Below, piece after piece: positions 7,864-57,609 of a stretch of DNA of 64,000 bases. This stretch comes from Corallococcus soli (GTDB taxonomy: Bacteria > Myxococcota > Myxococcia > Myxococcales > Myxococcaceae), in the NCBI RefSeq assembly GCF_014930455.1, contig NZ_JAAIYO010000001.1, positions 124,001-188,000 on the forward strand, written 5' to 3'. How positions within the stretch are numbered: position 1 is the stretch's first letter; each line of letters begins with the position of its first letter. The notes beneath the pieces are model-generated. The model saw nothing but the letters and a program-made list of their open reading frames with translations. It was not told the origin of the DNA and ran no database searches. A program made the translations under genes and the position numbers.

Positions 7864-9417
7864 ATGCTCAAGCATGAAGAGGGACGCCGGCCGGAGGCCC
7901 GCACGGGGCGCGCGATGAGTCTGCGCGCCTTCTTCTCCACCGTGGTGGGTGGCCTGGTGCTGCTCAGCCTGCTGTCCGCCAGCCTGCTCGTGGGGGTGAC
8001 CCAGGCGCTGGAGCGCGTGGCCTCCACCCTGAGTGAATCCGTGGACGGGGTGCGACAGGCGGAGGAGCTGGAGGTGGACCTGCTCATCCACTCCCGGCTC
8101 GTCTCGTCGCCGGATACGCCCCTGGTGGCGGACCCCTCGCGGGGGCGCTCGCCGCTGGAGATTGAATCGGACGTGCACCGTCAGTTGAAGGATCTGCACA
8201 CCACCGCCTCCACCGACGAGGAGCGTCAGGTGGTGGCGGAGGTGGAGCGCCACGTGGGCGCCTACCTGGAGGCGCAGCAGCGGCTGTCGGAGACGGGGCG
8301 GAACTCGTCGTCGTTTGACGGGCGGATGGTGGCCACGCTGGACGCGGCGCTGCGTTCGCTGGAGCGCCTCATCCAGATCAACGTGGACCAGGCCCAGCAT
8401 GAGCGCGTGCTCGCGAACCGCTGGAGCGACACGGCCAACCTGCTGGGGCTGGTGCTGGGCCTGCTGCTGCTGACGTCGCTGGGGCTGGGCAGCTTCTGGC
8501 TGCGGCGCTCCGCGCTGCGTCCGGTGGCGGGCCTCCAGCGTGCGATGCGCGCCTTTGGCGCGGGCCGCGACAAGGCCTCGCGCGCGCCGGAGGAGGGCCC
8601 GTCGGAGATCCGCGACATGGCCCAGACCTTCAACGAGATGGCGGACAGCCTGACCCACCAGCAGGAGCAGCAGCTGGCATTCCTGGCGGGCGTGGCGCAC
8701 GACCTGCGCAACCCGCTGTCTGCCCTCAAGCTGTCCACGGCGCTGGCGGCGCCCGGCCGCGCGGAGGTCACCCCGGAGCGGATGCAGCGCACGCTCTCGC
8801 TGGTGCGCCGGCAGGTGGCCCGGTTGGACCGGATGGTGGGGGACCTGCTGGACGCCACGCGCATCGAGGCGGGCAAGCTGGAGCTGCAGCCGGAGGTGCG
8901 CGACACGCGCGAGCTGGCGCGCTCCGTGGTGGAGCTGTACCAGTCCAGCGAGCCCGGCCACACGCTGGAGCTGGGGCTGCCCGACGCCCCAGTGCTGGTG
9001 CGGGCGGACCCCGCGCGGCTGGAGCAGGTGCTGACCAACCTGGTGAGCAACGCGCTCAAGTATTCACCGGCGGGCAGCCGCGTGGAGGTGTCCGTGCGAG
9101 GGGACGCGCACCACGCGGTGGTGGCCGTGGCGGACCAGGGCATCGGCATGTCCCCGGAGGAGCTCAAGGGGCTCTTCGTGCCGTTCCAGCGCGCGGGCAA
9201 CGCCAAGCAGCGCGCCCCGGGCGTGGGGCTGGGGCTGTCGGTGTCGCGGCGGATCATCGAAGCGCACGGCGGCCGCATCGAGGTGGAGAGCCGGCCCGGC
9301 CAGGGCTCCGTGTTCCGCGTCCTGCTGGCCCGGGTGGACGTCAGCGCCCCGGGCCTGCCCGCCGCCCCCGACGAAGAGGAGCCCGCCGAGGGCGAAGGCA
9401 CCGGCGCCCTGCACTGA
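7864..9417 (+). CDS. Membrane sensor histidine kinase (HAMP-HisKA-HATPase)
   Basis: 517 aa from ATG 7864, which has a GGAGGGAGG Shine-Dalgarno sequence directly before it; ATG 7915 is an alternative. Order: TM1 (about residues 22-44), a periplasmic region of about 150 residues with helical, charged pattern and a double Arg-Ser region, TM2 (about 197-218), HAMP, a HisKA box with phospho-acceptor His279 in Val-Ala-His-Asp-Leu-Arg-Asn-Pro, and an HATPase_c domain with N box (Asn-Leu-Val-Ser-Asn-Ala-Leu-Lys), G1 (Asp-Gln-Gly-Ile-Gly-Met) and G2 (Gly-Leu-Gly-Leu-Ser-Val). All catalytic blocks look intact. No cognate regulator is directly adjacent; the single-domain receiver at 10184 is the nearest candidate. 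Signal unknown. Confidence 0.93.
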   Translation: MLKHEEGRRPEARTGRAMSLRAFFSTVVGGLVLLSLLSASLLVGVTQALERVASTLSESVDGVRQAEELEVDLLIHSRLVSSPDTPLVADPSRGRSPLEIESDVHRQLKDLHTTASTDEERQVVAEVERHVGAYLEAQQRLSETGRNSSSFDGRMVATLDAALRSLERLIQINVDQAQHERVLANRWSDTANLLGLVLGLLLLTSLGLGSFWLRRSALRPVAGLQRAMRAFGAGRDKASRAPEEGPSEIRDMAQTFNEMADSLTHQQEQQLAFLAGVAHDLRNPLSALKLSTALAAPGRAEVTPERMQRTLSLVRRQVARLDRMVGDLLDATRIEAGKLELQPEVRDTRELARSVVELYQSSEPGHTLELGLPDAPVLVRADPARLEQVLTNLVSNALKYSPAGSRVEVSVRGDAHHAVVAVADQGIGMSPEELKGLFVPFQRAGNAKQRAPGVGLGLSVSRRIIEAHGGRIEVESRPGQGSVFRVLLARVDVSAPGLPAAPDEEEPAEGEGTGALH

Positions 9418-15495: not shown

Positions 15496-16398
15496 ATGAC
15501 GCCTTCCTGTCCTTCTTGTCAGGCCCCCTTCGTTCCCGGTGCACAGACGTGTGGCGCGTGTGGTGCCGCGCTGCTGGTGGCGCCGACCCCCGGAAGCTCC
15601 GAGCCTGTCTGCGCGGTGCACCCTCAGTGGCGGAGCGTGGGCACCTGCGCCCGGTGCGGTGCGTTCGCCTGCGCCAGTTGCCTGCGCCAGGGCACCGAGG
15701 GCGTGGTGTGCGCGAGCTGCCATGACCGCGCGCCCATGGGCACGGTGCCGTGGGACCGGCGTGGGGAGCTGGGGACGCTCAAGGCGTTCTGGCAGACGTG
15801 CCTGGGCATGCTGATGCGGCCCACGGAGACGCTCAAGGGCATCAACCCCGACGCGCCGGTGAGCAGCTCGATGGGCTTCGTGCTGATGACGGGGGTGGCG
15901 GGCTTCGTGACGACGGGCCTGCTCTACGCCGTCATCTTCGGCGGCATCCTGGCGTTCGTGCCCGCACCGGAGGCGAACACCGAGGCGAACCCCATGGGGT
16001 CCTCGGGCGCGAAGGTGTTCCTGGTGCTGGGGATGTTGGCGTGGGCGGCGGCGATGCCGTTCGTCAACGCGGGCATGACGTTCGTGATGGCGGGCATGGA
16101 CCACCTCCTGCTGCGCATGGGCGGCGTGGAGCGTGGCTTCTCGGTGACGATGCGCGCGCACGCGCTCTCCCTGGCGCCCTACATCGTCGGCATCATCCCC
16201 TTCGTGGCGCTCTACTCCGCGCCCTTCTGGGCCATGGGCCTGCGCGTGGTGACGTACCGGACGCTGCACCGCACCACCTGGGGCACCGCCGCGGCGGGCG
16301 CGCTCCTGGCGCCGGTGCTCTCCTGCTGCATCTGTGGCGGCGGCTACGCGGCCATCATGTTCGCGGTGTTCAAGGGCGTGTCGGGCAGCGGGGACTGA
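15496..16398 (+). CDS. Zinc-ribbon/B-box membrane protein, Yip1-like
   Basis: 300 aa from ATG 15496. The N-terminus has two zinc motifs: a Cys-Pro-Ser-Cys...Cys-Gly-Ala-Cys ribbon (residues about 5-27), then a B-box-like Cys-x-x-His...Cys-Ala-Arg-Cys...Cys-x-x-Cys...Cys-Ala-Ser-Cys set (about 43-76). The rest holds about five membrane helices between residues 115 and 295, with the Pro-Thr-Glu-Thr-Leu lead-in typical of Yip1-family proteins before the first helix. Its role is unknown; bacterial Yip1-like proteins have no defined function. Convergent with the lipoprotein at 16405 with a 6-base gap and no terminator between. Confidence 0.85.
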   Translation: MTPSCPSCQAPFVPGAQTCGACGAALLVAPTPGSSEPVCAVHPQWRSVGTCARCGAFACASCLRQGTEGVVCASCHDRAPMGTVPWDRRGELGTLKAFWQTCLGMLMRPTETLKGINPDAPVSSSMGFVLMTGVAGFVTTGLLYAVIFGGILAFVPAPEANTEANPMGSSGAKVFLVLGMLAWAAAMPFVNAGMTFVMAGMDHLLLRMGGVERGFSVTMRAHALSLAPYIVGIIPFVALYSAPFWAMGLRVVTYRTLHRTTWGTAAAGALLAPVLSCCICGGGYAAIMFAVFKGVSGSGD

Positions 16399-16404
16399 GC
16401 GGCC

Positions 16405-17484
16405 CTACGGCTGTCCGGACGCGGCGGTGGCGCCGTGGGGCACCCGCGGGCTGGCGGCGGGCCAGAAGCGGGCGCCGCGAAACCCGTCGAAGGACGCGGC
16501 CAGCCGCTTGGAGTCCAGGTCGTAGACGCGCGCCTGCGTCGTGCCCGCGAGCAGCAGCAGGTCTCCGCGCGCCATCGCCTGCACGGGGCTCCGGGCGGAC
16601 AGGCCCAGGCCCTGGGGCTCCGCGAGGCGGCCGTCATCCACCTCCCAGCGCACCGGCATCATGAGCGCGGTCTGCTCCCCCGCCGTCCGCCAGGCGAAGA
16701 GCGGTCCGCTCCGGGTCTCCACGCGCGCCCAGCCGCCGAACACGTCGTGGCCCCGGTGCGCCACCACGGCGTCGAGCCGGGCGGCCTCCTGGCTGTCTTC
16801 CTCCAGGGATTGGAGCGCCAGCGCGTCTGGATCCACCGACACGGTGGAGGACACCAGCATCTCCGTCGTGGTGAGGGCGAACACGGCGTCCGCGTCGTCG
16901 CCCGTGGTGGCCACGGTCTCGATGCGCTTCCACACGCCGGCTTCCAGGCGGAACGCGTGCGCCAGCCCCGCCCCTTCCTCCGTCTCCGGGATGGGGATGC
17001 GCCGGCCCTCGAAGAGGAAGACCTCCCTCGCGCCGTCCGCGCGGCGCACCAGGTCCCCGGTGTGCGCGACCAGGGCCACCAGCCGGCCCACCGAGTCGAA
17101 GCCCACCGCCCCTGTCAGGCCTTCCTCGGGCAGCAGCTGCGCCGCCGACTGACCGGAGGAGAGGTCCACCACCCACACGCGCCCGGGCCCCCGCGCGCTG
17201 CCGGCCGGGTCGCGCACGGCCGCGTGCCGTCCGTCCGCGCTCCACGCGAACTGGAGCCCGTCACACGCCGCGTCCACCGTGAGCAGGGCCCTGCGTCTGC
17301 CGTCGGACTCCAGGCGCAGCCAGGTACAGCCCGACGGCGCCGCGTCCTCCAGCACGGAGAGCGAGAACGGCGCCACCTTCACCGGCGCCAGCGGGACCTC
17401 CGGCTCGGGCGCGGAGGGCTCCGGGGGCTTCTGACACGCGCTCATGAGGAGCACGGCGCTGACGAGGCACGAGGCGCGGACCAT
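16405..17484 (-). CDS. Lipoprotein of unknown function, beta-propeller-like
   Basis: 359 aa from ATG 17484, preceded by a GGGAGGG Shine-Dalgarno sequence; the open frame to 17589 adds residues without a signal peptide. Lipobox Met-Ser-Ala-Cys (Cys about residue 17), then a Pro/Glu linker. The body alternates short strands with Ala-Trp-Ser-Ala-Asp-Gly-Arg-His-Ala and Gly-Phe-Asp-Ser-Val-Gly-Arg-Leu motifs, which is how WD40/TolB-type propeller blades read; several blades are visible, so a propeller is inferred. The promoter region (17490-17600) is A/T-richer than its surroundings, with a TATTAC element. No enzyme residues recognised. Confidence 0.8.
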   Translation of the reverse strand: MVRASCLVSAVLLMSACQKPPEPSAPEPEVPLAPVKVAPFSLSVLEDAAPSGCTWLRLESDGRRRALLTVDAACDGLQFAWSADGRHAAVRDPAGSARGPGRVWVVDLSSGQSAAQLLPEEGLTGAVGFDSVGRLVALVAHTGDLVRRADGAREVFLFEGRRIPIPETEEGAGLAHAFRLEAGVWKRIETVATTGDDADAVFALTTTEMLVSSTVSVDPDALALQSLEEDSQEAARLDAVVAHRGHDVFGGWARVETRSGPLFAWRTAGEQTALMMPVRWEVDDGRLAEPQGLGLSARSPVQAMARGDLLLLAGTTQARVYDLDSKRLAASFDGFRGARFWPAASPRVPHGATAASGQP

Positions 17485-17666
17485 GTGCAACCCTCCCGGA
17501 AAAAGATGACCACCATGTAATATGGCAGAAATCCGGGTAAGAGCGGAAGACACTTGGAGCGCACATCGTTGGGGCCCGCCCTTATTCATTCCTCCTTATG
17601 CGTAGCCCAGCGCGTCATCGATCCAGGGGCTGTCTGGGATTGAGGTCCGTGGAACGCAGCTGGGCT

Positions 17667-17846
17667 TCAGGTCCCGGGAACGGCCTGCGTCGTAGTTGCA
17701 TTCGCTTCTGCGGACGCGGCGAAGTCCTTCTCGAATCGAGGGCTGGAGATAAGCTTTTTCAAGAAGTCCTGGACGGCAGGCATGAAGGCCTGCGCGGTCA
17801 GGTTACACGCGTTGTCTCCAACGACGCTGCTGGAGAAGTTGCTCAC
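17667..17846 (-). CDS. Possible small peptide gene (59 aa), Nif11-leader-like pattern
   Basis: A minus-strand frame from GTG 17846 to TGA 17667-17669 encodes 59 residues with strong third-position G/C bias, unlike the other frames here. The middle reads Ala-Val-Gln-Asp-Phe-Leu-Lys-Lys-Leu-Ile-Ser-Ser-Pro-Arg-Phe-Glu-Lys, which resembles the helical core of Nif11-type leader peptides; a single Cys is near residue 14 and the tail is Thr/Ala-rich. The GTG overlaps (GTGA) the stop of a 25-codon frame beginning ATG 17920. No clear Shine-Dalgarno sequence is visible, so it may instead be the 3' remnant of a decayed gene. Tentative. Confidence 0.35.
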   Translation of the reverse strand: MSNFSSSVVGDNACNLTAQAFMPAVQDFLKKLISSPRFEKDFAASAEANATTTQAVPGT

Positions 17847-17951
17847 GCGCGATACTTGGAAGGGCTACATGTGAACCGGCGGAGGACGAATATCGCGATA
17901 GCGTCCTGTGCTCTGTTCATACGAACAACAGGAGGGGGCCTGGATGGAGTT

Positions 17952-17984
17952 AAGGCAGGCCTTCCTTCCCGAAGGCGTTGCCTT
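17952..17984 (-). terminator. Stem-loop after the 323-aa gene
   Basis: On the minus strand AAGGCA-ac-GCCTTC-gggaag-GAAGGC-c-TGCCTT forms a 12-bp interrupted stem beginning 26 bases after the stop at 18010. No T-run follows on the minus strand, so it could be a factor-independent terminator or an mRNA 3' structure. Confidence 0.4.
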
Positions 17985-18009
17985 TGCGTGAATCCGCCAT
18001 CAGTCGTGC

Positions 18010-18981
18010 TCAGGAGCCTGCCTTTTTTGGGGATTCTTGAGACGCGTTATTGGTTTCGGCCTTCGACGAGAGAAGCTTGTTGGAAGAGAGTCCCGCCTGG
18101 ATGCGAGAATGTTCTTCTGCCGTAGGGAAGGCATCCTGGACCGACTTGGGTGCTCCCAACGCAGGCATGAGCTTGACTCCCTGCTCGATGAGCTTCGAGT
18201 TCTCGATGATGGCTTGCCTCAGGATGTTAATGGTTTCTGCCTTGCCTTTTGAGAAGTGTTTTTCCTTCAGTTCCCCGGCTAGGGTGGTGGCAAGTCCGGC
18301 ACGCAGTTCCTCGCCGAATTTTTGGGCCGAGGCGGTCTCCTTGAGCTGGATCCGGAGCGCTTCGATATAGAGCGCATTCGTTGTGAACTGCTGGTACTGA
18401 GTTACGACTATGTGGGCGAACCGGCTAACAAGCCCGACGAGATTGAGGGCGGCAAGGGAGCCCGTTACTGCTTCCATCCAGAACGAGCCCGTGTCGAACG
18501 CATGCACTGTGGGCTGCGTCAGGATGGCATGTCCCTGTTCATCCTCCAGTTGCGCAAGGACATTGAAGAATCGCTCAAGCGCCACAGCCGTTTCGGCGAG
18601 CGCTCCAAAGGACTCCGGTTGCTGGATCTGAATGACCAGTGAGGTTGCGTCCTGAAGAGGGAGGGCTTCTTCGAGCAGTTCAGAGAAGGCCTCGACCGCG
18701 ACAGTCAGTCTGTATAGCGAGGCTGCAAGAGGATCCCCAAGCTCAAATGGGCTCGCAACCACATCTCCGGCGTGTCGAGCAATCAAGGGATGACTGCTCA
18801 CGGGGATTACATACTTTCGGAGGGCGGGCACGCTGGCCAGCAATGGGAGCGCCCGCCGGACCTTGTCCATTTCCAAGAAGCGAAGGCCTGGAGAACTATC
18901 CGGAAGTTTGTATGGACGCTCGACGTTGTTCCTGGGAAGGGCTGCAGTGGTGATGAGGTACTGGGCTTCTCGAAGCCGCAC
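18010..18981 (-). CDS. Unknown 323-aa protein in a lower-GC island
   Basis: 323 aa from GTG 18981, preceded by a purine-rich GGGGAA sequence. Mostly helical. Around residue 170 there is a hydrophobic segment (Ala-Val-Thr-Gly-Ser-Leu-Ala-Ala-Leu-Asn-Leu-Val-Gly-Leu) introduced by Phe-Asp-Thr-Gly-Ser-Phe-Trp, possibly one membrane helix; the C-terminal 130 residues are charged with coiled-coil-like heptads. Codon use is less G/C-biased than in neighbouring genes, as in the cyclase gene upstream on the same strand (100-base gap), so the two may share a history and perhaps a transcript. I do not recognise the family. Confidence 0.75.
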   Translation of the reverse strand: MRLREAQYLITTAALPRNNVERPYKLPDSSPGLRFLEMDKVRRALPLLASVPALRKYVIPVSSHPLIARHAGDVVASPFELGDPLAASLYRLTVAVEAFSELLEEALPLQDATSLVIQIQQPESFGALAETAVALERFFNVLAQLEDEQGHAILTQPTVHAFDTGSFWMEAVTGSLAALNLVGLVSRFAHIVVTQYQQFTTNALYIEALRIQLKETASAQKFGEELRAGLATTLAGELKEKHFSKGKAETINILRQAIIENSKLIEQGVKLMPALGAPKSVQDAFPTAEEHSRIQAGLSSNKLLSSKAETNNASQESPKKAGS

Positions 18982-19081
18982 GTCGTTCCCCGTATTCCTT
19001 GAGCGCGGGATGCGCAGGGGGCATTAAACTGCATCCCGTCTTCAGGCGCGAGCTTCGGAGGGCGCGGTCCCTGTCAGGATC

Positions 19082-21721
19082 TCACGGAAGACGGGAGGGC
19101 GTCAGGAGGTTTCTCGTCCACCGGTCGAGACTCCAGTATCGAACAGGCTTCTCCCGGTTCTTTACATGCGTCTCGCTGTATTCCTTGTTGTGGGACCAGG
19201 GAATGATGCCTCCCTGCATGCACGCGGAATAGGTCTCATGCTCGATCAAAACTTCCCCTGGTTTGGCATGGCTTTGGAGACGTGCCGCGACATTGACGAC
19301 GTCGCCAATGCAAGTGTAGTTCATGTGCTGCGGGGAACCCACCAATCCAATCAGCAGTCTTCCGGTGGCGATGCCTGCGGAGGCCTTCAATCCGCGATGT
19401 GGAGCAGAGAATCGTCGCTCCGACAGGTGCTCCACTTCCTCAACGATAGCCAGTGCGGCTCCCACGGCCGCGACGGCTTGGTTCTTCAGTGACTGTGCGG
19501 TGGTTTCGCCCTTGAAGACCGCCATCACGCAGTCGCCAATGAACTTGTCCACGGATCCGTGGTGGTCGTGGATGATGCGAGTGGCGAAGCCGTAGAATTC
19601 GTTGAGCAACGCGCGAACCTCCGCCAGCTCCTCTCTTTCGACCAGGGCTGTGTACCCACTCAGGTCCACGAACACAACCGTGCGCTCCTCAAGGCTGAAG
19701 CGGTTGAGTTCCTGCGTCCCGTTGTTGATGAGGGGCTCCAAGGGGGCGGAGCCGACGAAGCGGCTTAGAATGAGCTTGATGAACTCCCGGGGATCGAGCT
19801 GCTCGATCTCCTTTCGGAAGGACTCGATGAGAGAACCGAGATTCTGGATCGTGGCGCAACGGATCCCCTCGTCAAAGAGGCGCTTTGCCTCCTGATAGTG
19901 GGAACTGGCAGCATCCGTGTTGTTTGCGGCGGTTTCGTCCCGGTAGAGTTCTGCACAGAGCCTGCCGAAGTACAGGTGGGTTTCCGCCTGGACGTAGCTG
20001 GGGGGCGCAAGCGAGAACTCACGGAGGCTGGAAGAGAAAAGCGTGTGAGCCTGTTTCTTATTCCCTCGAGACCAAGCCAAGTGGGCACGCAAGGAATCCA
20101 GTGATGCGTTGGACGGTTTCGCCACCTCAGCGAAGCAAGCCTCAGCCCGGGAAATCTCTTCGTCGGCCGCAGTGGCATCCCCCGACAGGATGTGATGTCT
20201 GCAGAGTTCCTGGAGGGTCAGGGCCTGTTGGAGCAGATTCCCGGAACGCTCGAAGGTCTCTACTGCGAGCGCGTAGTACTTTTCGGCTTGCCGGGGCTGT
20301 CGAAGGTCGCGGTGGGCCCGTGCGAAGTTCCGGTGCGTATATCCCTTGGATACGGCTACGCTCGAGAGGCCTTGCTGGTGAAGCTCCTCCTCCTTGAACC
20401 ATTCCAATGCTTCCTGGGGGTTCCCTCGTGCGAGGTAGACCTTTCCCAGACTTGCGCTGACCTCCGCCTTGTCGTACTCGTTCTCGACTTCATGCGCGAG
20501 AAGCGTCTGCCAGAGCTTGAGGTGAACGAGTGCCTCCTCATGCCGGCCCCAGCTGATGTAGTTGACGGCGCTGCTCTTGTGCGCCTTGCTTTCGAGATAC
20601 TTCCAGCCCGACTTCTGTGCGGTCTTGAGCGCTTCGCGCAGGAGGTTGGCCGCCCGGTCAAAGTCGCGTCGAACCGAGTGGATGATGCCCTGGTGGCGAA
20701 GGGCTTCGGAGTGGATCAACCTCTGCGTTTCATTGGCCGGGTGGAGTTCTCCTAGGCGCTTGAATTGCTCGAGTGCCAGTCCGTGCTGTTCAGAGAGGAA
20801 GCTCGCAACCCCCGACTCGAATAGCACTCGCGTGGGGAGATTTGTTGAAGGCCTGCTGCTGTGTTGGAGCTTTGCCGTGGCGTCTTGAAAGGCTTTCACG
20901 GCGGCGTTGAGATCGCGACGTTGGGCATAGACCATCCCGTTGAGGCATTGAACGAGCGCCTGGAAGTATTCATCCAGTGATCCCGAAGCCTCCCAAGCCC
21001 TGTCGACCAGCAACTCGGCTTGGCGAAGGTCGTGCTGATGGATGTAGAGTGTTCCGAGCTGGAATGCGGCCTTGACCACCAAATCCTTGTTTGTATTGGT
21101 CCGGTCAATCAGCTCGCGAAACAGCTCTCGAGCGCGCTCCCAGCGACCCTGGATGAAGAGGATTCGGGCTTCGTAATACTTCGCGGAAAGCAGCAGGCGC
21201 TCTAGCGGAGTGCTACCGGTCCCTCCGATAGGTCGGTGCTTCTTGAGGGCGGACAGACCGGAGAGGGCCTTCTCATGTTGCCCCTGACGCATCAATGTGA
21301 CGACATTATCGATGTGACGGGCCGTATGGAGTTCGGTTTCAAAGTGGACGTAGCGGAGGATTGTCTGCCCGAGTTTGAGTTCCTCTCCAGGGCGGAGGAT
21401 CCCCAAGGTTTGGAGCCCGACTCTATGCCCCTGGATCGACGTGTGGCCTTCGCTGTCGCTCAAGTTCTCGACCTGAACTCGAGGGCCCTCCACGCTGTGC
21501 AGGACTTTCAAGACGGCATGGCGGCGGGACACGCCATGGTCTGAGAGACGGATGGAGGTTTCCGTGCTGCGGCCGATTGTGGCCTGTGGGGCAAGGAGGA
21601 TGAACTGTAGGCCTTGATCCTCGGCGTCAGGCGCCGTTTGGACGATGAGGCAGGGCTGCTTCGCGAGGTTCGGGGGAAGGGTGAACTGGCGAGTCTTTTC
21701 AGGATCGAAGTCGGCAGTCAT
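19082..21721 (-). CDS. FHA-TPR-class III adenylate cyclase
   Basis: 879 aa from ATG 21721 (GGAAGG Shine-Dalgarno sequence). Residues about 35-115 are an FHA domain with Gly50-Arg51-Ser52 and Ser65-Arg-Arg-His68, so it should bind phosphothreonine. Residues about 130-640 are helical TPR-like repeats. Residues about 679-850 are a class III nucleotide cyclase: metal Asp686 and Asp730, Lys726 and Thr803 as the purine-specifying pair (Lys-Thr, as in class IIIb adenylate cyclases), transition-state Asn810 and Arg814. All catalytic residues are present. No membrane segment. The FHA suggests control by a Ser/Thr kinase, but none lies in the window. Lower GC than flanking genes. Confidence 0.92.
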   Translation of the reverse strand: MTADFDPEKTRQFTLPPNLAKQPCLIVQTAPDAEDQGLQFILLAPQATIGRSTETSIRLSDHGVSRRHAVLKVLHSVEGPRVQVENLSDSEGHTSIQGHRVGLQTLGILRPGEELKLGQTILRYVHFETELHTARHIDNVVTLMRQGQHEKALSGLSALKKHRPIGGTGSTPLERLLLSAKYYEARILFIQGRWERARELFRELIDRTNTNKDLVVKAAFQLGTLYIHQHDLRQAELLVDRAWEASGSLDEYFQALVQCLNGMVYAQRRDLNAAVKAFQDATAKLQHSSRPSTNLPTRVLFESGVASFLSEQHGLALEQFKRLGELHPANETQRLIHSEALRHQGIIHSVRRDFDRAANLLREALKTAQKSGWKYLESKAHKSSAVNYISWGRHEEALVHLKLWQTLLAHEVENEYDKAEVSASLGKVYLARGNPQEALEWFKEEELHQQGLSSVAVSKGYTHRNFARAHRDLRQPRQAEKYYALAVETFERSGNLLQQALTLQELCRHHILSGDATAADEEISRAEACFAEVAKPSNASLDSLRAHLAWSRGNKKQAHTLFSSSLREFSLAPPSYVQAETHLYFGRLCAELYRDETAANNTDAASSHYQEAKRLFDEGIRCATIQNLGSLIESFRKEIEQLDPREFIKLILSRFVGSAPLEPLINNGTQELNRFSLEERTVVFVDLSGYTALVEREELAEVRALLNEFYGFATRIIHDHHGSVDKFIGDCVMAVFKGETTAQSLKNQAVAAVGAALAIVEEVEHLSERRFSAPHRGLKASAGIATGRLLIGLVGSPQHMNYTCIGDVVNVAARLQSHAKPGEVLIEHETYSACMQGGIIPWSHNKEYSETHVKNREKPVRYWSLDRWTRNLLTPSRLP

Positions 21722-21920
21722 GGGGCGACCTTCCGGCCCGTGAAGGCGTGGACCCACGATTGACGAAGCAATGCTCCAAGTGGCCCTCCCCCCGGATTTG
21801 GGTGCGGCATGACTCTATCACTCCAGGTCCTACTGACGAGGTGGGGCCCTGGCGCGGCGCACATCGTCCGTCCTTTGGATGAGGGGACGAGCTGGCGGTA
21901 GATTGGTTGCTGGACGGTAC

Positions 21921-22577
21921 CTACAGCGCCATGTACGCGCGCGCCGCCGGCACGGAGTAGAACTTCCCTTCCGGCAGCACGTACGCGGTGAGCTTCCCGC
22001 CGTACACGCAGCCGGAGTCCAGCCCCAGCGCGAAGGGGTGCTTCTGCAGGCCGCGCATCGCGTCGTGGCCGAAGACGACCAGCTCCGGGCCCTTCCACAG
22101 GCTGCCCCAGGGCTCGCCCGCCTCCAGCCGCTTCGACGGCGTCCCGTCCGCCGCGATGCTGCGCATGTTCAGCAGGAACTCCTCCTTCTGCTCCCCGATG
22201 GGCACCCCGGGCACCAGGCCCGCGTGCACCGCGACCACGTTCAGCTCCGGGAAGTGCGCGTAGGCGGGCAGCGTCGCCAGGTACGCCCAGTCCTCCTCCG
22301 TCAGCGTGTCCAGCACCTGCCGGTGCTCCGGCTTGAGCTTCTTGCCCTTCGCCGCGCGGCCCGCGTGCCAGCGCAGCACGTGCGCGTCGTGGTTGCCCTT
22401 CACCGCCCGGAAGCCGTGCTCCCGCGCCCGCCGCACCACCCCCGCCGAGTCCGGCCCCTTCGCCACCAGGTCCCCCACCAGCACCACCCGGTCCGCCGGA
22501 CTCCAGTCACACGCCTTCAGGAGCGCATCCAGCTCGCTGGAACAGCCGTGCACATCCCCGATGAAGAGCGTTCGCAT
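21921..22577 (-). CDS. Metallophosphoesterase (ApaH/PrpA-like)
   Basis: 218 aa. It has all calcineurin-like motifs in order: Gly-Asp-Val-His-Gly (residues 7-11), Gly-Asp-Leu-Val-Ala-Lys-Gly-Pro-Asp-Ser (about 35), Gly-Asn-His-Asp (about 61), a His in Ala-Val-His-Ala-Gly (about 118) and Gly-His-Asp near residue 170. The length and the Lys-Gly-Pro-Asp-Ser motif fit the bacterial diadenosine tetraphosphatase/PrpA-type protein phosphatase group; which substrate it uses cannot be told. Soluble and cytosolic. The 200-base gap to the cyclase start holds no other gene. Confidence 0.9.
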   Translation of the reverse strand: MRTLFIGDVHGCSSELDALLKACDWSPADRVVLVGDLVAKGPDSAGVVRRAREHGFRAVKGNHDAHVLRWHAGRAAKGKKLKPEHRQVLDTLTEEDWAYLATLPAYAHFPELNVVAVHAGLVPGVPIGEQKEEFLLNMRSIAADGTPSKRLEAGEPWGSLWKGPELVVFGHDAMRGLQKHPFALGLDSGCVYGGKLTAYVLPEGKFYSVPAARAYMAL

Positions 22578-22662
22578 CCCACCCCCTCTTAACGCACTGG
22601 CCGCGTCCGCCCTGCCCGGTTTCTCGGGCCCCTGACGTCCAGGGCGGGGCTCGCGCGCCGCG

Positions 22663-23523
22663 TCACTCGGAGTGGGTGCGCAAGAGCCGGCTCAGGCTCA
22701 CGTCCAATTGACTGGAGATGAGCCGCAGCACGCTGTCCAGCTGCGAGCGCGTCAGCCGCAGCCGCTCCGTCAGTCGCTGCCGCGTCCCGTCCAGCAGCTC
22801 CTCCTGCGCCCCCACCACCCAGCGCGCCGCCGTGGAGCGGTGCACCCCGTAGAGGGCCCCCAACTGGTCGATGCCCAGCCCGTCCAGGTATTTCAGCCGC
22901 AGGAAGTTGCGCTGCCGCGCCGACAGGGCCGCCAGCGCCGCCTGGAACGACGCGCTGAACTCCGCCCGGTACGTCTGCTTCAGGTACGCCAGCTCCGGGT
23001 CATCCCCGGGCGCCACCAGCATGGACAGGTCGCCGTCCTCCGACTGCCCCTGCCCGGAGCGCTGGCGCTGCCAATCCAGCGCCAGCCACAGCGCCGCCGC
23101 GCGCACCCAGCCCGCCAGCGGCCCCGTGCCCGGGTAGGCGGCCAGCCGCGCCGGCGCGTCCGCGCTCCCCACCAGCATCCGCTGCCGCAAGAGCTGGCGC
23201 ACCTCGTCCAGGCCCGCCGCGGGCAGCTTCAGCCGCGCCACCGCCGCGTCCACCTCCGGCATCAGGCGCGACTCGAAGGTCGCCAGCGCCGTGGGCAGCC
23301 CGTCCGCCGCCGCCCGCGCCAGGTACACGTCCGCCATGTGCAGCTTGCCCCAGGCCTCCTCGTTGCCCTCCGCCGGGACGAGCCGGGCCAGATGTGCCGC
23401 GAAGCGCGGGCCCTCCAGCGTCACCCCGGGCCAGGACTGACGGGCCGCCTCCAGCGCCGCCGCCAGCCGCTCCTGGAGGACGGGCAGGGCACCAGGGGGC
23501 TCCGCTCTTCCTCGGGCGGTCAT
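22663..23523 (-). CDS. Myxococcales-type RNA polymerase sigma-70 factor
   Basis: 286 aa from ATG 23523 (the open frame to 23577 adds only 18 residues). The N-terminal 140 residues are helical and divergent; region 2 lies about residues 120-190 (Tyr-Pro-Gly-Thr-Gly-Pro-Leu-Ala-Gly-Trp-Val-Arg), and region 4 about residues 210-260 has the HTH core Leu-Ser-Ala-Arg-Gln-Arg-Asn-Phe-Leu-Arg-Leu and Ile-Asp-Gln-Leu-Gly-Ala-Leu-Tyr-Gly-Val-His-Arg-Ser-Thr. The layout fits a myxobacteria-restricted sigma family often found near protein kinase genes; no kinase or anti-sigma gene is adjacent here. Expected to direct a specialised regulon; no signal visible. Confidence 0.85.
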   Translation of the reverse strand: MTARGRAEPPGALPVLQERLAAALEAARQSWPGVTLEGPRFAAHLARLVPAEGNEEAWGKLHMADVYLARAAADGLPTALATFESRLMPEVDAAVARLKLPAAGLDEVRQLLRQRMLVGSADAPARLAAYPGTGPLAGWVRAAALWLALDWQRQRSGQGQSEDGDLSMLVAPGDDPELAYLKQTYRAEFSASFQAALAALSARQRNFLRLKYLDGLGIDQLGALYGVHRSTAARWVVGAQEELLDGTRQRLTERLRLTRSQLDSVLRLISSQLDVSLSRLLRTHSE

Positions 23524-23835
23524 GAACGCCTGGGCTAGGGGCAAATCCGGAGGGGCCACGCCACGGAACACTATCACCGGCCCCTGTCACGCCGCCGAAC
23601 CACTCCCCACGCCGCAACTGCTTTCCCGGAGTCCAGGTGTCCCCCGGGACACGCTCCGGCCCCGTGCGTGTCCACCCCCGCACGCCCTCCGCGCCAGGAA
23701 GGGCAGCCGCCCCGGGCAGGCCCCCCTGTCCGCCCGGGTGGCATCCTGCCCCCGTGGCTCCCCGGCCACGGACGCCCATGGCCCGGCCTTTGCTGGTAGA
23801 CGGCGGAGCGCGCAGCGGTTGGAAGGCGTGGAGGT

Positions 23836-34461: not shown

Positions 34462-36009
34462 TCAGGGGGATGACAGCCGCTCCCGGAGGACGTGCTTCTG
34501 GACCTTGCCCAGGGCGTTGCGGGGTAGGGCGTCGGTGAAGACGACGCGGCGCGGCTTCTTGAAGGCGGCCAGACGTTCGCGGCACCAGTCGACCAGGGCC
34601 TGGGCGTCCTGGGGCGCACCGGGAGTGGAGACGATGACGGCGACGACCTGTTCGCCGAAGTCGGCATCCGGCAGGCCCAGCACGGCGGCCTCGGCGACGG
34701 AGGGGTGTCCGGCGAGGACCTCTTCGACCTCGCGGGGGTAGACGTTGAAGCCGCCGCTGATGATGAGCTCGCGGGCGCGGCCGGTGATGCGCAGGAAGCC
34801 GTCAGGGTCGTACTCGCCCAGGTCGCCGGTGCGGAACCAGCCGTCGGCGTCGAAGGCCTCGGTGGTGGCGTCCGGGCGGCGCCAGTAGCCGGTGAAGACG
34901 TGGGGTCCGCGCACCTCGATTTCACCTGTCTCGCCGCGGGGCAGGACCGCACGCGAGCGCACGTCCACGACGCGGGCCTCCTGGCCGGGGAAGGGCATGC
35001 CCACGGTGCCGGGGCGGCGCTCGCCGTCGTAGGGCTGGGTGGTGTTCATGAGCGTCTCCGTCATGCCGTAGCGCTCCAGGATGCGGGCGCCGAGCTGGCC
35101 TTCAATGTCCAGGCACAGCTGGGGGCTCAGCGGCGCGGAGCCGGACACCCACAGGCGCAAGGCGCGCGGCTTCACGCCGGTGCGGCGCGACTCCTCCAGC
35201 AGGCGCCCGTACATGGTGGGCACGCCGAAGAAGAGGGTGAGGGACGCATCCCCGTGGAGGGATGCGAGGGCTTCGGAGGCGACGAAGCGGCGGCGCAGGT
35301 CCACGCTGGCGCCGGTGAAGAGGGTGCCATGCAGGCCCACCATGAGGCCGTGGGTGTGGAAGAGCGGCAGGGTGAGCAGCAGCCGGTCCGCGTCCGTCCA
35401 GCGCCACGCTTCGGTGACGGCACGCACGTTGGCGAGCAGCTGCCGGTGCTGGAGCATGGCGCCCTTGGAGCGGCCGGTGGTGCCGGACGTGTAGCCCAGC
35501 ACCGCGAGGTCCTCCGCGCCGGGCAGGGGCAGCGGGGCGTGGGAGGCGGAGCCCTGCGCGAGGAGGGTGTCGAAGGGCACGGTGGGCAGGGATGCGGGGA
35601 GGTCCGGAGGGGGCGGCTCCACGGTGATGAGCCATTGCAGCGCGGGGAGCTGATCGCGCAGGGGCGCGAGTTCGGAGGCGCCCGAGGTGCCGGTGACGCA
35701 GACCTTCACCTCCGCGTCGGAGAGGATGTGGGCCAGCTCGACCTGGCGGTACGCGGTGTTGACGAGCACGGCGACGCAGCCGGCGGCCTGGACGCCCAGC
35801 CAGGTGACGACGAACGCGTCGCTGTTCTCCAGGAAGAGGGCCACGCGCTCACCGGGAGCGAGGCCCCGGGCCTTGAGGCCGCGAGCGAACGCGGTGACGC
35901 GCTCCGCGAGCTGTCCGCGCGTGAAGGTGGTGCCCTCGAAGGAGAGCAGCGGGCGCGAGGGCGCGTGACGGGCATGGTCGAGGAACGCTTCGAGCAGGGA
36001 GGCCGGCAT
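34462..36009 (-). CDS. Acyl-CoA synthetase, MatB/ACSF3-like
   Basis: 515 aa from ATG 36009. AMP-forming adenylating enzyme: Gly-Tyr-Thr-Ser-Gly-Thr-Thr-Gly-Arg-Ser-Lys-Gly (about 172-183), Tyr-Gly-Met-Thr-Glu-Thr near 335, Thr-Gly-Asp near 415 and the catalytic Lys502 in Leu-Gly-Lys-Val-Gln-Lys. The Pro-Tyr-Asp-Gly-Glu-Arg-Arg-Pro-Gly-Thr-Val-Gly block following the Tyr-Gly-Met-Thr-Glu motif is typical of malonyl/methylmalonyl-CoA synthetases (MatB, ACSF3), so malonate or a related diacid is the best guess. Such an enzyme could supply extender units for fatty-acid or polyketide synthesis. No associated decarboxylase or transporter in the window. Confidence 0.88.
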   Translation of the reverse strand: MPASLLEAFLDHARHAPSRPLLSFEGTTFTRGQLAERVTAFARGLKARGLAPGERVALFLENSDAFVVTWLGVQAAGCVAVLVNTAYRQVELAHILSDAEVKVCVTGTSGASELAPLRDQLPALQWLITVEPPPPDLPASLPTVPFDTLLAQGSASHAPLPLPGAEDLAVLGYTSGTTGRSKGAMLQHRQLLANVRAVTEAWRWTDADRLLLTLPLFHTHGLMVGLHGTLFTGASVDLRRRFVASEALASLHGDASLTLFFGVPTMYGRLLEESRRTGVKPRALRLWVSGSAPLSPQLCLDIEGQLGARILERYGMTETLMNTTQPYDGERRPGTVGMPFPGQEARVVDVRSRAVLPRGETGEIEVRGPHVFTGYWRRPDATTEAFDADGWFRTGDLGEYDPDGFLRITGRARELIISGGFNVYPREVEEVLAGHPSVAEAAVLGLPDADFGEQVVAVIVSTPGAPQDAQALVDWCRERLAAFKKPRRVVFTDALPRNALGKVQKHVLRERLSSP

Positions 36010-36108
36010 GGTGCCCGCGAGCCTAGCTGGGACGGAGGGCTGTGGGGGGAAGGGGAGTGATACATTCAAGCCTCCTCCGTGCGGCGCCCACGCAAGGGTC
36101 ATCCCGAC

Positions 36109-36978
36109 ATGTCCAGCCTCTGGTTCAACGTCCCCTTCCTGTATTGCCGCTTCCGGATGGTCATCGCGCATTCGACGCGCCGCCAGGGAAAGCCAGATTC
36201 AGCGGGGATGCGAAGTGAGTCGAGACACGCCGCGCAGGTGGTCATCTCGGGCTCATTCCGCCTTCAAGGCAGCCACAGTGTCCTGGGTGCGTACTTCCAC
36301 GACACGAAAGCGGTGTACCGGGTCCAGGGGTGGATCAAGGACGCGGTGATCAACACCGGTCCGCAATTCCGACAGGAACTGCTGACCACGAAGGTCGTCT
36401 CTGGACTCACCACGCCGGGGACCGTCTCCCTGTCCATCAAGCCTGAGTTCGATCATCGGGCGACCTTGTCCGCGTTCGTTCTCGAAGAACACCGCATCAG
36501 GATGCAGGTCCATACCGTGCAGCGGCTCGCATCTCCGAACCTGAACGGCTCCACGGAAGAAGACACCGTGGACGTCTTCGATGCCCAGTTCAATGTCTGT
36601 GATGGGAAGGTCCCGGAAACGCCCGGTGAGCTGCGCATCAATGAAAAAACAGATGGCGCCAGCGCGTACGTCCCCGACTGTCAACGGGACTGCGAGAAGC
36701 CAATGGTTTCCTGTGTCCTCCGCCTCACGCCCGGCATCCCGGCCTTTCGCATCGTGGATGACTCCGTGGAGCAGAACCCCATTCAAAACTGTCGCATCCG
36801 CGTCCGGGGCCCGGACGGCCGGGAGCAGGAGCTCGAGACCGACGCGCACGGTGAAGTCTTCATCCCCCGCACCGGCGACGAGGTCTACACCCTGCTCGGC
36901 GTCGTCCAGGACGAGGCCCCTCTTGCTGGCGCGCTCCTGGGTGAATGGACCGTCGAATCCATGCCGGACCTGCCCTGA
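36109..36978 (+). CDS. Unknown protein with C-terminal regulatory-like beta domain
   Basis: 289 aa from ATG 36109, though a GTG at 36079 is possible and no Shine-Dalgarno sequence decides between them. The middle is rich in beta-strand-like segments with several Cys (Cys-Gln-Arg-Asp-Cys near 190 and others). The C-terminus contains Cys-Arg-Ile-Arg-Val-Arg-Gly-Pro-Asp-Gly and Thr-Asp-Ala-His-Gly-Glu-Val, the reading of a carboxypeptidase-regulatory/VgrG-type beta fold with a Gly-Glu turn. Codon use is a little less G/C-rich than its neighbours. Followed 30 bases later by the 522-aa gene, so probably a pair. Family not recognised. Confidence 0.7.
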   Translation: MSSLWFNVPFLYCRFRMVIAHSTRRQGKPDSAGMRSESRHAAQVVISGSFRLQGSHSVLGAYFHDTKAVYRVQGWIKDAVINTGPQFRQELLTTKVVSGLTTPGTVSLSIKPEFDHRATLSAFVLEEHRIRMQVHTVQRLASPNLNGSTEEDTVDVFDAQFNVCDGKVPETPGELRINEKTDGASAYVPDCQRDCEKPMVSCVLRLTPGIPAFRIVDDSVEQNPIQNCRIRVRGPDGREQELETDAHGEVFIPRTGDEVYTLLGVVQDEAPLAGALLGEWTVESMPDLP

Positions 36979-37008
36979 ACCTCCTTCCCGACCGACACCT
37001 CCAGACCC

Positions 37009-38577
37009 ATGCCGAATCTTGAAACGCTGTTGAAGGACACGCTGCTGCTCACCGCCGCTCCCGACGCACCGTGGAAGTCCTACGGCGCGAGCCCGGGCAC
37101 GATGGAAGCCGCCGCGGCGGACCCGGGCACCCCGGGACGCTGGAAGTGGTCCCACGACGTCCGCAAGCCGGGGCGCGTGAGCGGGGTGACCTACCACCTG
37201 CTCCGGACGCCCTGGTACGTCGAACAGACCCCCACCGTCCTGGAGGAGCTCCTCTGGCATCCCATCGAGGTGGGCTATCGCGGCCTGCCCCTGACGCTGG
37301 AGCTCACCAAGAAGTTCCTGGTGCGCAAATACGAGACCTCCAGTGGAACCGTCGCCGAGGGCCAATCCGCCTACTGGCTTCCCGCGGAGCTCGACCGGAG
37401 CATGCTGCTCGTCTTCGGCTTCCAGCTGAACCTGCGCGCGAAGTCCAAGACCTACTCGCTGGAGCCCATCCCCCTGGATGTGCTGGAGCAGGACGACTTC
37501 ATGCCCAGGCCCGGCGCGAAGCCGCCCAAGGCTCCCGTCATGAAGGTGACGCGCACGGAGACCGGCACCCTCCAGCTCGTGCCCCTGCGGGTGCTGGTGT
37601 GCGCGGAGTTCGTCTGCTGCCAGGAGAGCACCGACTACGTGCCGGGCGCCAAGGCGCGCACGTCGCGATTCCGGCCGCACCTGATGATCATGAGCAACCG
37701 TCCGTTGGAGAAGCTGGCCGCGAAGATCAGCATCCGCCGTCCCTCCATGTCCACCATGGCGCATGAGGGCCTGCCCCCCGCGGACGACGAGGATGGGATG
37801 TCGCACATGATGGCGACGGGGATGTGGTCGGACTCGAACTCGCCGGAGGTCGCCTGGGAGAAGATCTTCACTGTTTCGATTCCGCCGGTCTGGTCCTCCA
37901 TCTTCTCCCGCTTCAAGACGAACCTCCCGGCGGGCGCGGGCTACCTGATGGCCTCGCCGGACGCCCCGGGAGGACCGGGCTTTCTCTCGCACCGCTGGAA
38001 CGACGCGGCGGGACGGTACGAGCAGCATCAGGAGGAGCTGATGCCGGGCCAGGGATACTTCGACAACATCCACGTGGCGCCACCCATGCGCGCACCCAAG
38101 ACCCTCCGCGACCTCTATCCGGACGCGAAGCTGCACCTGGACGAGATCGTCATGGCGCCCTTCTGCATCCATGACTGTCTTCACCAACACTGGCGCTGGT
38201 TGCCGGCGAAGGAGAAGTCCCTGCACGGTTGGGATGCGAAGGGTCCCTATACCGTCCCGGGGGCTCCGCACATCCCGCTGCATCAGCACCTGCGCGTGGA
38301 GGTGGAGTCTCCCCACGCGTATGCCTATTGCGTCCGCTCGGAACAGGTCCTGGAGCCGGGCCGCTGGGAGTACGTCCTGCACGAAGGACTGGCCTACGGG
38401 ATCAGCGCGAGCAACGACGCGATGGGCAAGCTGCTGCTGGGAGGTCGGGCGCTGCTCTCCCCGTGGCCCTCGGAGGCGCAGACGTCGTGGGCGATGTTCT
38501 ACTGGGTGCTGCGCTACAGCCGCACCCGGGACCGGGCCGTTGAGCGGCTCCTGGAGGATGGGGCGCCCGTGCCCTGA
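37009..38577 (+). CDS. Unknown 522-aa protein, His/Cys-rich core
   Basis: 522 aa, soluble-looking, no signal peptide. N-terminal half alternates charged strands; a Cys-Ala-Glu-Phe-Val-Cys-Cys cluster lies near residue 200. Between residues 380 and 430 there is a His/Cys-dense stretch (Phe-Cys-Ile-His-Asp-Cys-Leu-His-Gln-His-Trp-Arg-Trp, then His-Ile-Pro-Leu-His-Gln-His), which could bind metal. The C-terminal tail is Trp/Tyr-rich. Follows the 289-aa gene by 30 bases in the same direction. I do not recognise either protein; the pair looks like an accessory module. Confidence 0.75.
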   Translation: MPNLETLLKDTLLLTAAPDAPWKSYGASPGTMEAAAADPGTPGRWKWSHDVRKPGRVSGVTYHLLRTPWYVEQTPTVLEELLWHPIEVGYRGLPLTLELTKKFLVRKYETSSGTVAEGQSAYWLPAELDRSMLLVFGFQLNLRAKSKTYSLEPIPLDVLEQDDFMPRPGAKPPKAPVMKVTRTETGTLQLVPLRVLVCAEFVCCQESTDYVPGAKARTSRFRPHLMIMSNRPLEKLAAKISIRRPSMSTMAHEGLPPADDEDGMSHMMATGMWSDSNSPEVAWEKIFTVSIPPVWSSIFSRFKTNLPAGAGYLMASPDAPGGPGFLSHRWNDAAGRYEQHQEELMPGQGYFDNIHVAPPMRAPKTLRDLYPDAKLHLDEIVMAPFCIHDCLHQHWRWLPAKEKSLHGWDAKGPYTVPGAPHIPLHQHLRVEVESPHAYAYCVRSEQVLEPGRWEYVLHEGLAYGISASNDAMGKLLLGGRALLSPWPSEAQTSWAMFYWVLRYSRTRDRAVERLLEDGAPVP

Positions 38578-56259: not shown

Positions 56260-57594
56260 ATGTCGCGCTGGGCAGCCGTGTTGTTGTGGGTGGTGTGCGC
56301 GACGGGGTGCGCGACGTCGCGGACGTGGCGGTTGGACACGGGCGAGGGGCAGGCCCGGGAGTACACGCCACGCAAGGCGACGGCGCTGGTGGCGCTGGAC
56401 GGCGAGTCCTTCAAGGAGGCTGTCCGGACGCTGGCCCCCGGTGCGCCGGTGACGGCGCGTCCCCGGTGGGAAACGCTCCGGTTGCTGAAACCCGAGGCCC
56501 GCCGTGCGCGAGCGTCCCTGGGGCTCGTCACGCTGGAGGACCCCAGGCGGGGCCGCGTGCGGGTGGCGGAGGCGCTGGAGAAAGGCACCGCGCTGGAGGA
56601 GGCCTACGGGCGCTGGTGCGTGCGCAAGAGGCTGGGTGGGGACTGCCTGCACCTCTTGGAGGAGGGGTCAGGGCTGGACGAGGAGGGCAAGCGGACGCTG
56701 GCCTTCCGCATCGCGTTGGACTCGGTGTGGGAGGAGACGGCGAGCGCGCTGGAGGGGATGACGGACCCGGAGTCGATGGTGACGCTGCTGGCGACGACGG
56801 GAGCGGTGTACCTGGGGCTGTGGCTGGTGCCGGAGCCGCTGTTGTCCAAGGGCATCGCGGCGGTGCTGACAGCGGGGCTGATCGCGTACCTGGGTTGGGA
56901 CACGGTGTGGAGCCTCATCCAGGGGTGGAGGGTGTTCTCGGAGCGGGTGAGGGAGGCGGAGGACTTCGAGGGCATCCGGCAGGCGGGGGAGCAGTACGGG
57001 GAGGTGATGGGGAAGCAGGCGGCGAGGGCCTTCGTGATGCTGACGATGGCGGCGCTGGGCGGCACGGCGCAGACGCTGGCGGCGAGGATGCCGACGCTGC
57101 CGGGAGCGGCGCAGGCGGCGCTGGTGGGAGCGGAGCAGGGAGGCTTCAGTCTCGCGGCGGTGGGGCAGGTGAGCGCGGTGGCCGTGTCGTCGAGCGGCAC
57201 GGTGACGCTGGAGCTGGCGCCGGGCGCGGTGGCGATGGCGGCGCGGGGGCCGACGTCAGGGGCGCTGGAGGTCCACGAGCACCACATCGCCACGAACAAG
57301 TGGTGGGAGGCCACGCACAACGGTGGGCCGTGGTCGCCCCAGTTCCAGGAACTGTTCGACCGGGCCGGGATGTCCTTGGATGATCCGGCGAACCGGGTCT
57401 TCATTCGAGGCCACAAGGGGCCTCATCCCAAGGCGTATCATCAGGAGGTCCTGCGGCGATTGAGGCAAGCAATGGGCCGCTGCCGAAGCACGGCTCAGTG
57501 TAGAGAGGTGCTGACCTCAAGGCTCAAGCAACTGGCTTCGGAGCTCAAGACCGACGGTACGCAGCTCCACAAGTGGATTACCCGGACCGAGTGA
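56260..57594 (+). CDS. SitA-like lipoprotein toxin with AHH nuclease domain
   Basis: 444 aa from ATG 56260 (GTG 56257 and TTG 56224 possible). Lipobox Cys-Ala-Thr-Gly-Cys with the lipid Cys about residue 17. Residues about 150-280 hold one or two hydrophobic segments (Val-Thr-Leu-Leu-Ala-Thr-Thr-Gly-Ala-Val and Ala-Leu-Gly-Gly-Thr), as in SitA-type toxins that cross membranes of neighbouring cells after outer-membrane exchange. The C-terminal 105 residues are an AHH/HNH-type nuclease: His341-His342 preceded by Glu-Val-His-Glu, then Gly-Met-Ser-Leu-Asp-Asp-Pro-Ala-Asn-Arg-Val-Phe and Gly-His-Lys-Gly-Pro-His-Pro. Predicted contact-transferred DNase/RNase; the next gene is the likely immunity protein. 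C-terminal codon use is slightly less G/C-rich. Confidence 0.85.
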   Translation: MSRWAAVLLWVVCATGCATSRTWRLDTGEGQAREYTPRKATALVALDGESFKEAVRTLAPGAPVTARPRWETLRLLKPEARRARASLGLVTLEDPRRGRVRVAEALEKGTALEEAYGRWCVRKRLGGDCLHLLEEGSGLDEEGKRTLAFRIALDSVWEETASALEGMTDPESMVTLLATTGAVYLGLWLVPEPLLSKGIAAVLTAGLIAYLGWDTVWSLIQGWRVFSERVREAEDFEGIRQAGEQYGEVMGKQAARAFVMLTMAALGGTAQTLAARMPTLPGAAQAALVGAEQGGFSLAAVGQVSAVAVSSSGTVTLELAPGAVAMAARGPTSGALEVHEHHIATNKWWEATHNGGPWSPQFQELFDRAGMSLDDPANRVFIRGHKGPHPKAYHQEVLRRLRQAMGRCRSTAQCREVLTSRLKQLASELKTDGTQLHKWITRTE

Positions 57595-57609
57595 CGCGAG
57601 GATTCTGGC

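Follow-up and report, generated by a model that had tools for sequence, protein, structure and literature searches.

The window analysed here is a 64,000-nucleotide stretch of Corallococcus soli (contig NZ_JAAIYO010000001.1, positions 124,001 to 188,000). Within it lies a 4.03-kb island of low guanine-plus-cytosine content (GC) with two genes on the same strand. The larger gene encodes a class III nucleotidyl cyclase with an FHA domain and a long arm of TPR repeats, and the smaller gene encodes a 323-residue protein without a known family, referred to as the orphan protein. The features of the locus are collected in Table 1.

The GC profile drops to 57-61% over approximately 17.5-22.0 kb of the window, whereas the sequence to either side has about 70-75%. 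Measured over its exact extent (17,890-21,919), the insert has a GC of 58.9%, and the background has 70.8 ± 2.25%. The background was measured in 1,853 overlapping windows of 4,030 bp, taken from 20 stretches of 20 kb (400 kb) of the same genome and from the rest of the 64-kb window. None of the 1,853 was as GC-poor as the island, and the background minimum was 63.1%. Similarly, the GC at third codon positions (GC3) was 0.642 for the orphan gene and 0.720 for the cyclase gene, against 0.921 ± 0.052 for the background genes (n = 227). With a score resembling the codon adaptation index (CAI), the orphan gene ranked 0/227 and the cyclase gene 2/227 from the bottom; these ranks are approximate, since the 227 genes were picked by a simple frame rule. 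The segment is marked as foreign because its composition alone is so low compared with the background. The lower GC and the mixed third codon positions reported by the first-pass annotation were therefore verified. Two milder GC dips (about 63-66%) are also found in the window, at 36,001-37,500 and 57,001-58,500.

The site was compared by a blast search with window positions 15,520-23,580 as the query, which covered 16 genomes from the genus, its own and 15 others. Flank sequence was present in all 16 genomes, and neither island gene was present in any of the 15 others. Both flanks were located on a single contig in 13 of the 15; the site of G005 was split over two contigs, and the right flank of G002 was not retrieved. 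The interval between the flanks spans 33 bp in G006 and 54 bp in G014, which are empty sites, and reaches 3,943 bp in G012. An intact gene of about 202 residues occupies the site in the close congeners G013 and G009. It is named lipoprotein-like from our reading of its LLSAC signal, and the G009 protein matches no Pfam family. The window matches this native gene from the 3' end to 17,889 only, and foreign sequence continues thereafter to 21,919, right next to the stop codon that ends the phosphoesterase gene. This indicates that the island replaced the 5' part of the native gene. Blastn against the congeners and alignment placed the two junctions at 17,889/17,890 and 21,919/21,920. An extent of 17.6-21.9 kb had been proposed earlier; its right end holds at 21,919, whereas its left border is moved to the left junction, since the sequence up to 17,889 is native and common to G013 and G007.

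Direct repeats were searched at the island flanks and none were found, and no tRNA or Rfam match was present anywhere in the 64-kb window. Scans for promoters and terminators gave results no better than chance. In G007, the same site (L049:2999-3904) carries a GC-poor gene of 301 residues together with the lipoprotein-like frame. This gene contains a DUF4357 domain and matches PDC-S14 of PADLOC with an E value of 1.5e-102. PDC-S14 is a phage-defence candidate. The replacement-type acquisition of the foreign segment is well supported by these comparisons, and the locus represents a resolved replacement site with sister genomes in the pre-insertion state. A second variable site, unrelated to the island, was noted at window positions 16,398-16,410; four congeners have native DNA of high GC there, about 2 kb long, in which we read an alcohol dehydrogenase and a LysR regulator.

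Table 1 Features of the island, its flanks, and the related cassette in G073. Positions are those of the window unless a locus is named.
Feature	Position	Strand	Evidence or remark
Acquired island, insert replacing part of a native gene	17890..21919	.	blastn against congeners, alignment, GC
Left flanking gene, 394 aa	16405..17589	-	No Pfam family above cut-off; region in 15/15 congeners
3' stump of native lipoprotein-like gene (~202 aa)	17667..17889	-	Alignment, translations; intact in G013 and G009; open frame in G007
Orphan gene, 323 aa, GTG start	18010..18981	-	Conserved hydrophobic stretch, residues 175-194
Intergenic gap between the two island genes	18982..19081	-	100 nt; coding strand without terminator-like site
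FHA-TPR-class III cyclase gene, 879 aa	19082..21721	-	ATG at 21,721; homologue in G073, 51% identity over its length
Class III nucleotidyl cyclase domain, residues 678-863	19133..19690	-	Pfam PF00211 Guanylate_cyc, E 9.5e-22
TPR solenoid, residues ~172-642	19796..21208	-	Pfam TPR families; AlphaFold2 helix pairs
FHA domain, residues 48-118	21368..21580	-	Pfam PF00498, E 4.4e-8
Right flanking gene, calcineurin-like phosphoesterase, 218 aa	21921..22577	-	Pfam PF00149, E 1.5e-12; conserved
Group II intron and tRNA-3'-like remains flanking the G073 cassette	L014:2331-2570, 2264-2330, 9260-9396		

The architecture of FHA, TPR, and class III cyclase domains proposed for the larger gene was confirmed by Pfam. 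An alternative in-frame GTG at 21,757 would give a protein of 891 residues. In the FHA domain, a candidate phosphothreonine binder, residues GR51, S65, R66, and H68 are kept, and the Asn of the usual NGT turn is missing both here and in the homologue described below. The TPR arm was modelled as a solenoid of helical hairpins in an AlphaFold2 run with two sequences. Its TPR repeats agree with the earlier description, but the predicted length is about 470 residues rather than about 500. The predicted local distance difference test score (pLDDT) of the TPR block lay for the most part between 65 and 92; it dipped to 47-57 around residues 370-400 and fell to 55-59 towards residues 620-640. Only the TPR arm can be judged from this model; in the cyclase part the pLDDT is below 50.

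The PF00211 match of the cyclase domain reached 77.9 bits against a curated cut-off of 21.9, and its nearest solved relative is CyaB (PDB 3r5g, E 4e-28). Residues D686, D730, K726, T803, N810, and R814 align with their counterparts in CyaB and in photoactivated adenylyl cyclases. We take D686 and D730 to be the metal-binding residues, K726 and T803 the base-specifying residues, and N810 and R814 the transition-state residues. A Lys/Thr pair marks ATP as the substrate, and the enzyme is predicted to make cyclic AMP (cAMP) from ATP. At the level of these residues, a class III cyclase with a complete catalytic set of ATP type is supported, and with it the label of signalling.

The GTG start of the orphan gene at 18,981 fits a homologue, which likewise begins with MRLR. 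No family match for the orphan protein was found in Pfam, NCBIfam, PADLOC, or PHROGs, and no credible match was found in PDB, in agreement with the description of a same-strand protein of no known family. Prediction of its structure from the single sequence gave a mean pLDDT of 38, too low to be of use. TRADD-N was considered on the basis of passages of PMC8195603, and no Pfam match supports it. The proteins of the window and of genome G051 were aligned and searched against 384 genomes at E <= 0.01. Matches were obtained in five of them: its own genome, G051, G383 (E 3e-14), and, at E of about 0.007, G121 and G136. The last two were dropped as chance matches located inside frames read as a pyrroline-5-carboxylate reductase and a histidine kinase, which leaves G051 and G383 as the only credible homologues. 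Genome G383 is outside the phylum of the window, and a search of 82 genomes of its phylum returned G383 alone. No further homologues were found in plasmids, phages, IMG/VR viral contigs, or one scan of genome contigs.

The region around the G051 homologue (31% identity) is that of a prophage; it contains integrase-like, ParA-like, P63C, and terminase genes but lacks a cyclase. The gene of this homologue is GC-poor, with 55% against 68% in the surroundings. The G383 homologue (18% identity) lies near the start of a contig, before genes that we read as secG-like and glycolysis-type, and no cyclase is in view downstream. The three proteins share an MR start, a motif around GSFW/Y-E, a single hydrophobic stretch (Kyte-Doolittle peak 1.59-1.98), and, at the C-terminus, a P-P-V-FP pattern. 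The orphan family introduced here, with members in a prophage, on a myxobacterial island, and in another phylum, behaves as mobile cargo.

The FHA-TPR part of the cyclase was searched in the 384 genomes, which belong to 273 genera, at E <= 1e-18. It was found in two genomes only, the genome of the window and G073, a metagenome-assembled genome of the Myxococcaceae (Zod_Metabat.575, L014/L017). The two cyclases have the same domain order and share 51% identity overall; the cyclase part is the best conserved (64%), followed by the TPR part (46%) and the FHA part (42%). The nonsynonymous (dN) and synonymous (dS) divergences of the pair are 0.43 and 1.45 overall. The G073 cyclase gene is 16 nt from a gene (L014:2557-6048) for a protein of 1,163 residues, which contains a WD40 propeller, a Roc/Ras GTPase domain, and a calcineurin-like phosphoesterase. 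We know of no description of this WD40-Roc-phosphoesterase architecture. The best NCBIfam match of the phosphoesterase C-terminus is the anti-phage phosphoesterase DS9_1 with 87 bits, which is below the cut-off of 420 bits, and SbcD gives 32 bits. Distant copies of this type of gene are found elsewhere in the genomes of two G073 congeners, G065 and G075.

Six congeners of G073 retain the right flank and have no match across most of the cyclase gene. The distribution of the window island and of the G073 cassette indicates that two separate FHA-TPR-cyclase genes are both lineage-specific insertions. A group II intron domain (RF02003, 87.5 bits) is present on one side of the G073 cassette. On its other side, a fragment of a group II reverse transcriptase lies beside a piece resembling a tRNA 3' end; both labels are our own reading, and ARAGORN calls no tRNA. 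The intron remains and the tRNA-like piece are perhaps the vehicle of the G073 insertion. Two other elements were noted beside this cassette, a frame at about L014 1450-2100 that we read as an SMI1/KNR4-type immunity protein, and an intergenic repeat of about 180 bp (L014:9046-9234) with many copies in the genus of G073.

The island is tentatively explained as an acquired cassette, in which a cAMP-making sensor cyclase is joined to exchangeable partners, perhaps in conflict with phages. Foreign DNA was inserted recently by replacement at a gene-turnover site of the myxobacterial chromosome. The main gene encodes a soluble sensor enzyme, with the FHA domain and the TPR arm placed on a cyclase of predicted cAMP-making activity. 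The FHA/TPR arm may dock a partner or a phosphoprotein, upon which the cyclase domains would pair and release a burst of cAMP. The 323-residue neighbour with its membrane-like stretch would be, by its adjacency, the likeliest candidate for a local partner or effector. Because G073 joins the same kind of sensor cyclase to the WD40-Roc-phosphoesterase in another recent insertion, a cassette of the conflict or defence type that is mobile and swaps partners is suggested, rather than a developmental regulator. A role in conflict is proposed on three grounds: the partner in G073 resembles an effector, the homologues lie in mobile settings, and a defence candidate occupies the site in G007.

Several results weigh against the cassette explanation. 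The adjacency of the island pair, which the first-pass annotation had proposed to look for in other genomes, was seen once only, and each component occurs apart everywhere else it was found: the cyclase homologue with a different partner, the two orphan homologues without a cyclase in view. One cyclase homologue was found in 384 genomes, and two orphan homologues are credible. No mobility gene is among the two genes of the island, and no integrase, tRNA, or transposon is linked to it. The other inserts at the site are mostly serine hydrolases and other genes of native GC, not defence genes; the site is therefore a gene-turnover site and not a dedicated defence island. The best PADLOC PycC score of the island cyclase was 78.4 bits, and a resident FHA-GAF-cyclase reached 89.4 bits, so the match is non-specific. 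The spacing and strand of the two genes are compatible with an operon and do not prove one. Of the acquired signalling module proposed by the first-pass annotation, the acquisition stands by composition, absence from 15/15 congeners, and replacement of a native gene, and the signalling by the cyclase residues; a module of the two genes is possible but is not supported by synteny.

An acquired but ordinary adenylyl cyclase is a real possibility, which would regulate by feeding the cAMP pathways of the cell (stress, development, predation), with the 323-residue gene as unrelated cargo. The host genome is already rich in class III cyclases, including the FHA-GAF-cyclase, which adjoins a kinase-like gene (the GAF and kinase labels are our own reading). 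The pair, with its gap of 100 nt, is conserved nowhere else found, and in two other genomes no cyclase is in view near the orphan. The tight linkage of the G073 homologue to a defence-like effector, again in a lineage-specific insertion, argues in the other direction, as does the sporadic distribution at a replaced site, which is unlike that of a core regulator. Two independent single-gene imports at the turnover site, of the cyclase gene and of a stand-alone and possibly prophage-derived orphan gene, are improbable. The GC3 values of the two genes are unequal (0.64 vs 0.72), the prophage homologue has no cyclase, and the site has received other genes in other species; however, the two genes are on the same strand, 100 nt apart, with no native sequence recognised between them, and both are foreign in composition.

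It is highly improbable, and largely refuted, that nothing was acquired, whether because the genes are ancestral and every other congener has lost them or because the island is an artefact of the assembly. Many of the genomes are drafts, and presence or absence alone cannot exclude loss. However, the GC and codon usage are foreign, the native gene is truncated exactly at the junction with its intact form in sister genomes, and the contig is 1.8 Mb long with native flanks on both sides. Two refutation tests had been set beforehand by the first-pass annotation, GC and codon use equal to the flanks and a pair syntenic across all Myxococcaceae. Neither refutes its proposal: GC and codon use depart from those of the flanks, and the family shows no synteny of the pair.

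A more specific form of the cassette explanation is rather doubtful. The FHA-TPR arm would sense infection or a phosphorylated host protein, and would emit a dedicated signal of cAMP type, by which exchangeable effectors are turned on in a mobile, partner-swapping defence or conflict cassette. The effectors would be an undescribed membrane-associated family of about 300-335 residues here and the WD40-Roc-phosphoesterase in G073. In many bacteria cAMP serves as a housekeeping signal, so a mobile cassette producing it would need either to keep apart from that pathway or to take it over. To our knowledge, defence by cyclic mononucleotides in bacteria is established for pyrimidines. If the proposal is true, the FHA-TPR cassette would be a purine counterpart of Pycsar. 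Class III cyclase signalling is already known; the putative partner family is undescribed, and a defence role is plausible. A description of the cassette was not found in the titles and abstract openings of open-licence PubMed Central papers, with the terms matched literally.

The island cyclase is similar to CyaB in that all catalytic residues and the ATP-type base residues align. It differs in its regulatory part, which is an FHA domain with a TPR arm of about 470 residues, whereas that of CyaB is a membrane part; its gene is also located on a recent island. The likeness to Pycsar consists of the same cyclase superfamily, the PADLOC PycC matches, and a cyclase gene beside a second gene. The differences are the ATP-type residues K726/T803 and the lack of a known adjoining Pycsar effector, the 323-residue protein matching none of the PADLOC families. 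Passages of PMC11224242 present pyrimidine signals as established in bacterial defence by Pycsar, and report that the CTP cyclase EaPycC uses F100, R142, and Q144 and that the UTP cyclase BcPycC uses Y50, D94, and R97. The positions of R142 and Q144 of EaPycC, as given in these passages, are K726 and I728 in the island cyclase, and F684 matches F100; the residues were matched by spacing from the metal Asps rather than by structural alignment, and the BcPycC set was not aligned. Membership in Pycsar was rejected from the residues, the partner, and the higher-scoring control cyclase.

According to passages of Kaur et al. 2020 (PMC7159879), cyclic nucleoside monophosphate (cNMP) cyclases, FHA domains, and calcineurin phosphoesterases recur in multigene conflict systems of multicellular bacteria, including the two-gene EACC1 System 4. 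As described there, the likeness to the island and the G073 cassette is in the exchangeable parts, namely a cyclase, FHA, a calcineurin phosphoesterase, and superstructure repeats, and, for System 4, in a partner with one hydrophobic helix. The differences from the systems in these passages are that the caspase, vWA, MoxR, and STAND parts are absent from the island, that the 323-residue protein has no EACC1 match, and that the gene order is reversed with the cyclase first. An EACC1-type partner (PF19953) gave no match in Pfam scans to E 10, in which the HMMER filters drop most weak matches. The EACC1 profile was silent in 98/98 genomes; its 14 control genomes likewise gave no match, and little can therefore be read from a lack of EACC1 in the relatives. 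The island fits the conflict systems of these passages by analogy, and the one defining feature tested, EACC1, was absent. A further comparison is with the G073 cassette, which has an FHA-TPR-cyclase of 51% identity in the same domain order and is likewise a lineage-specific insertion, and which differs in its partner gene, its bracketing group II intron remains, and its milder GC contrast.

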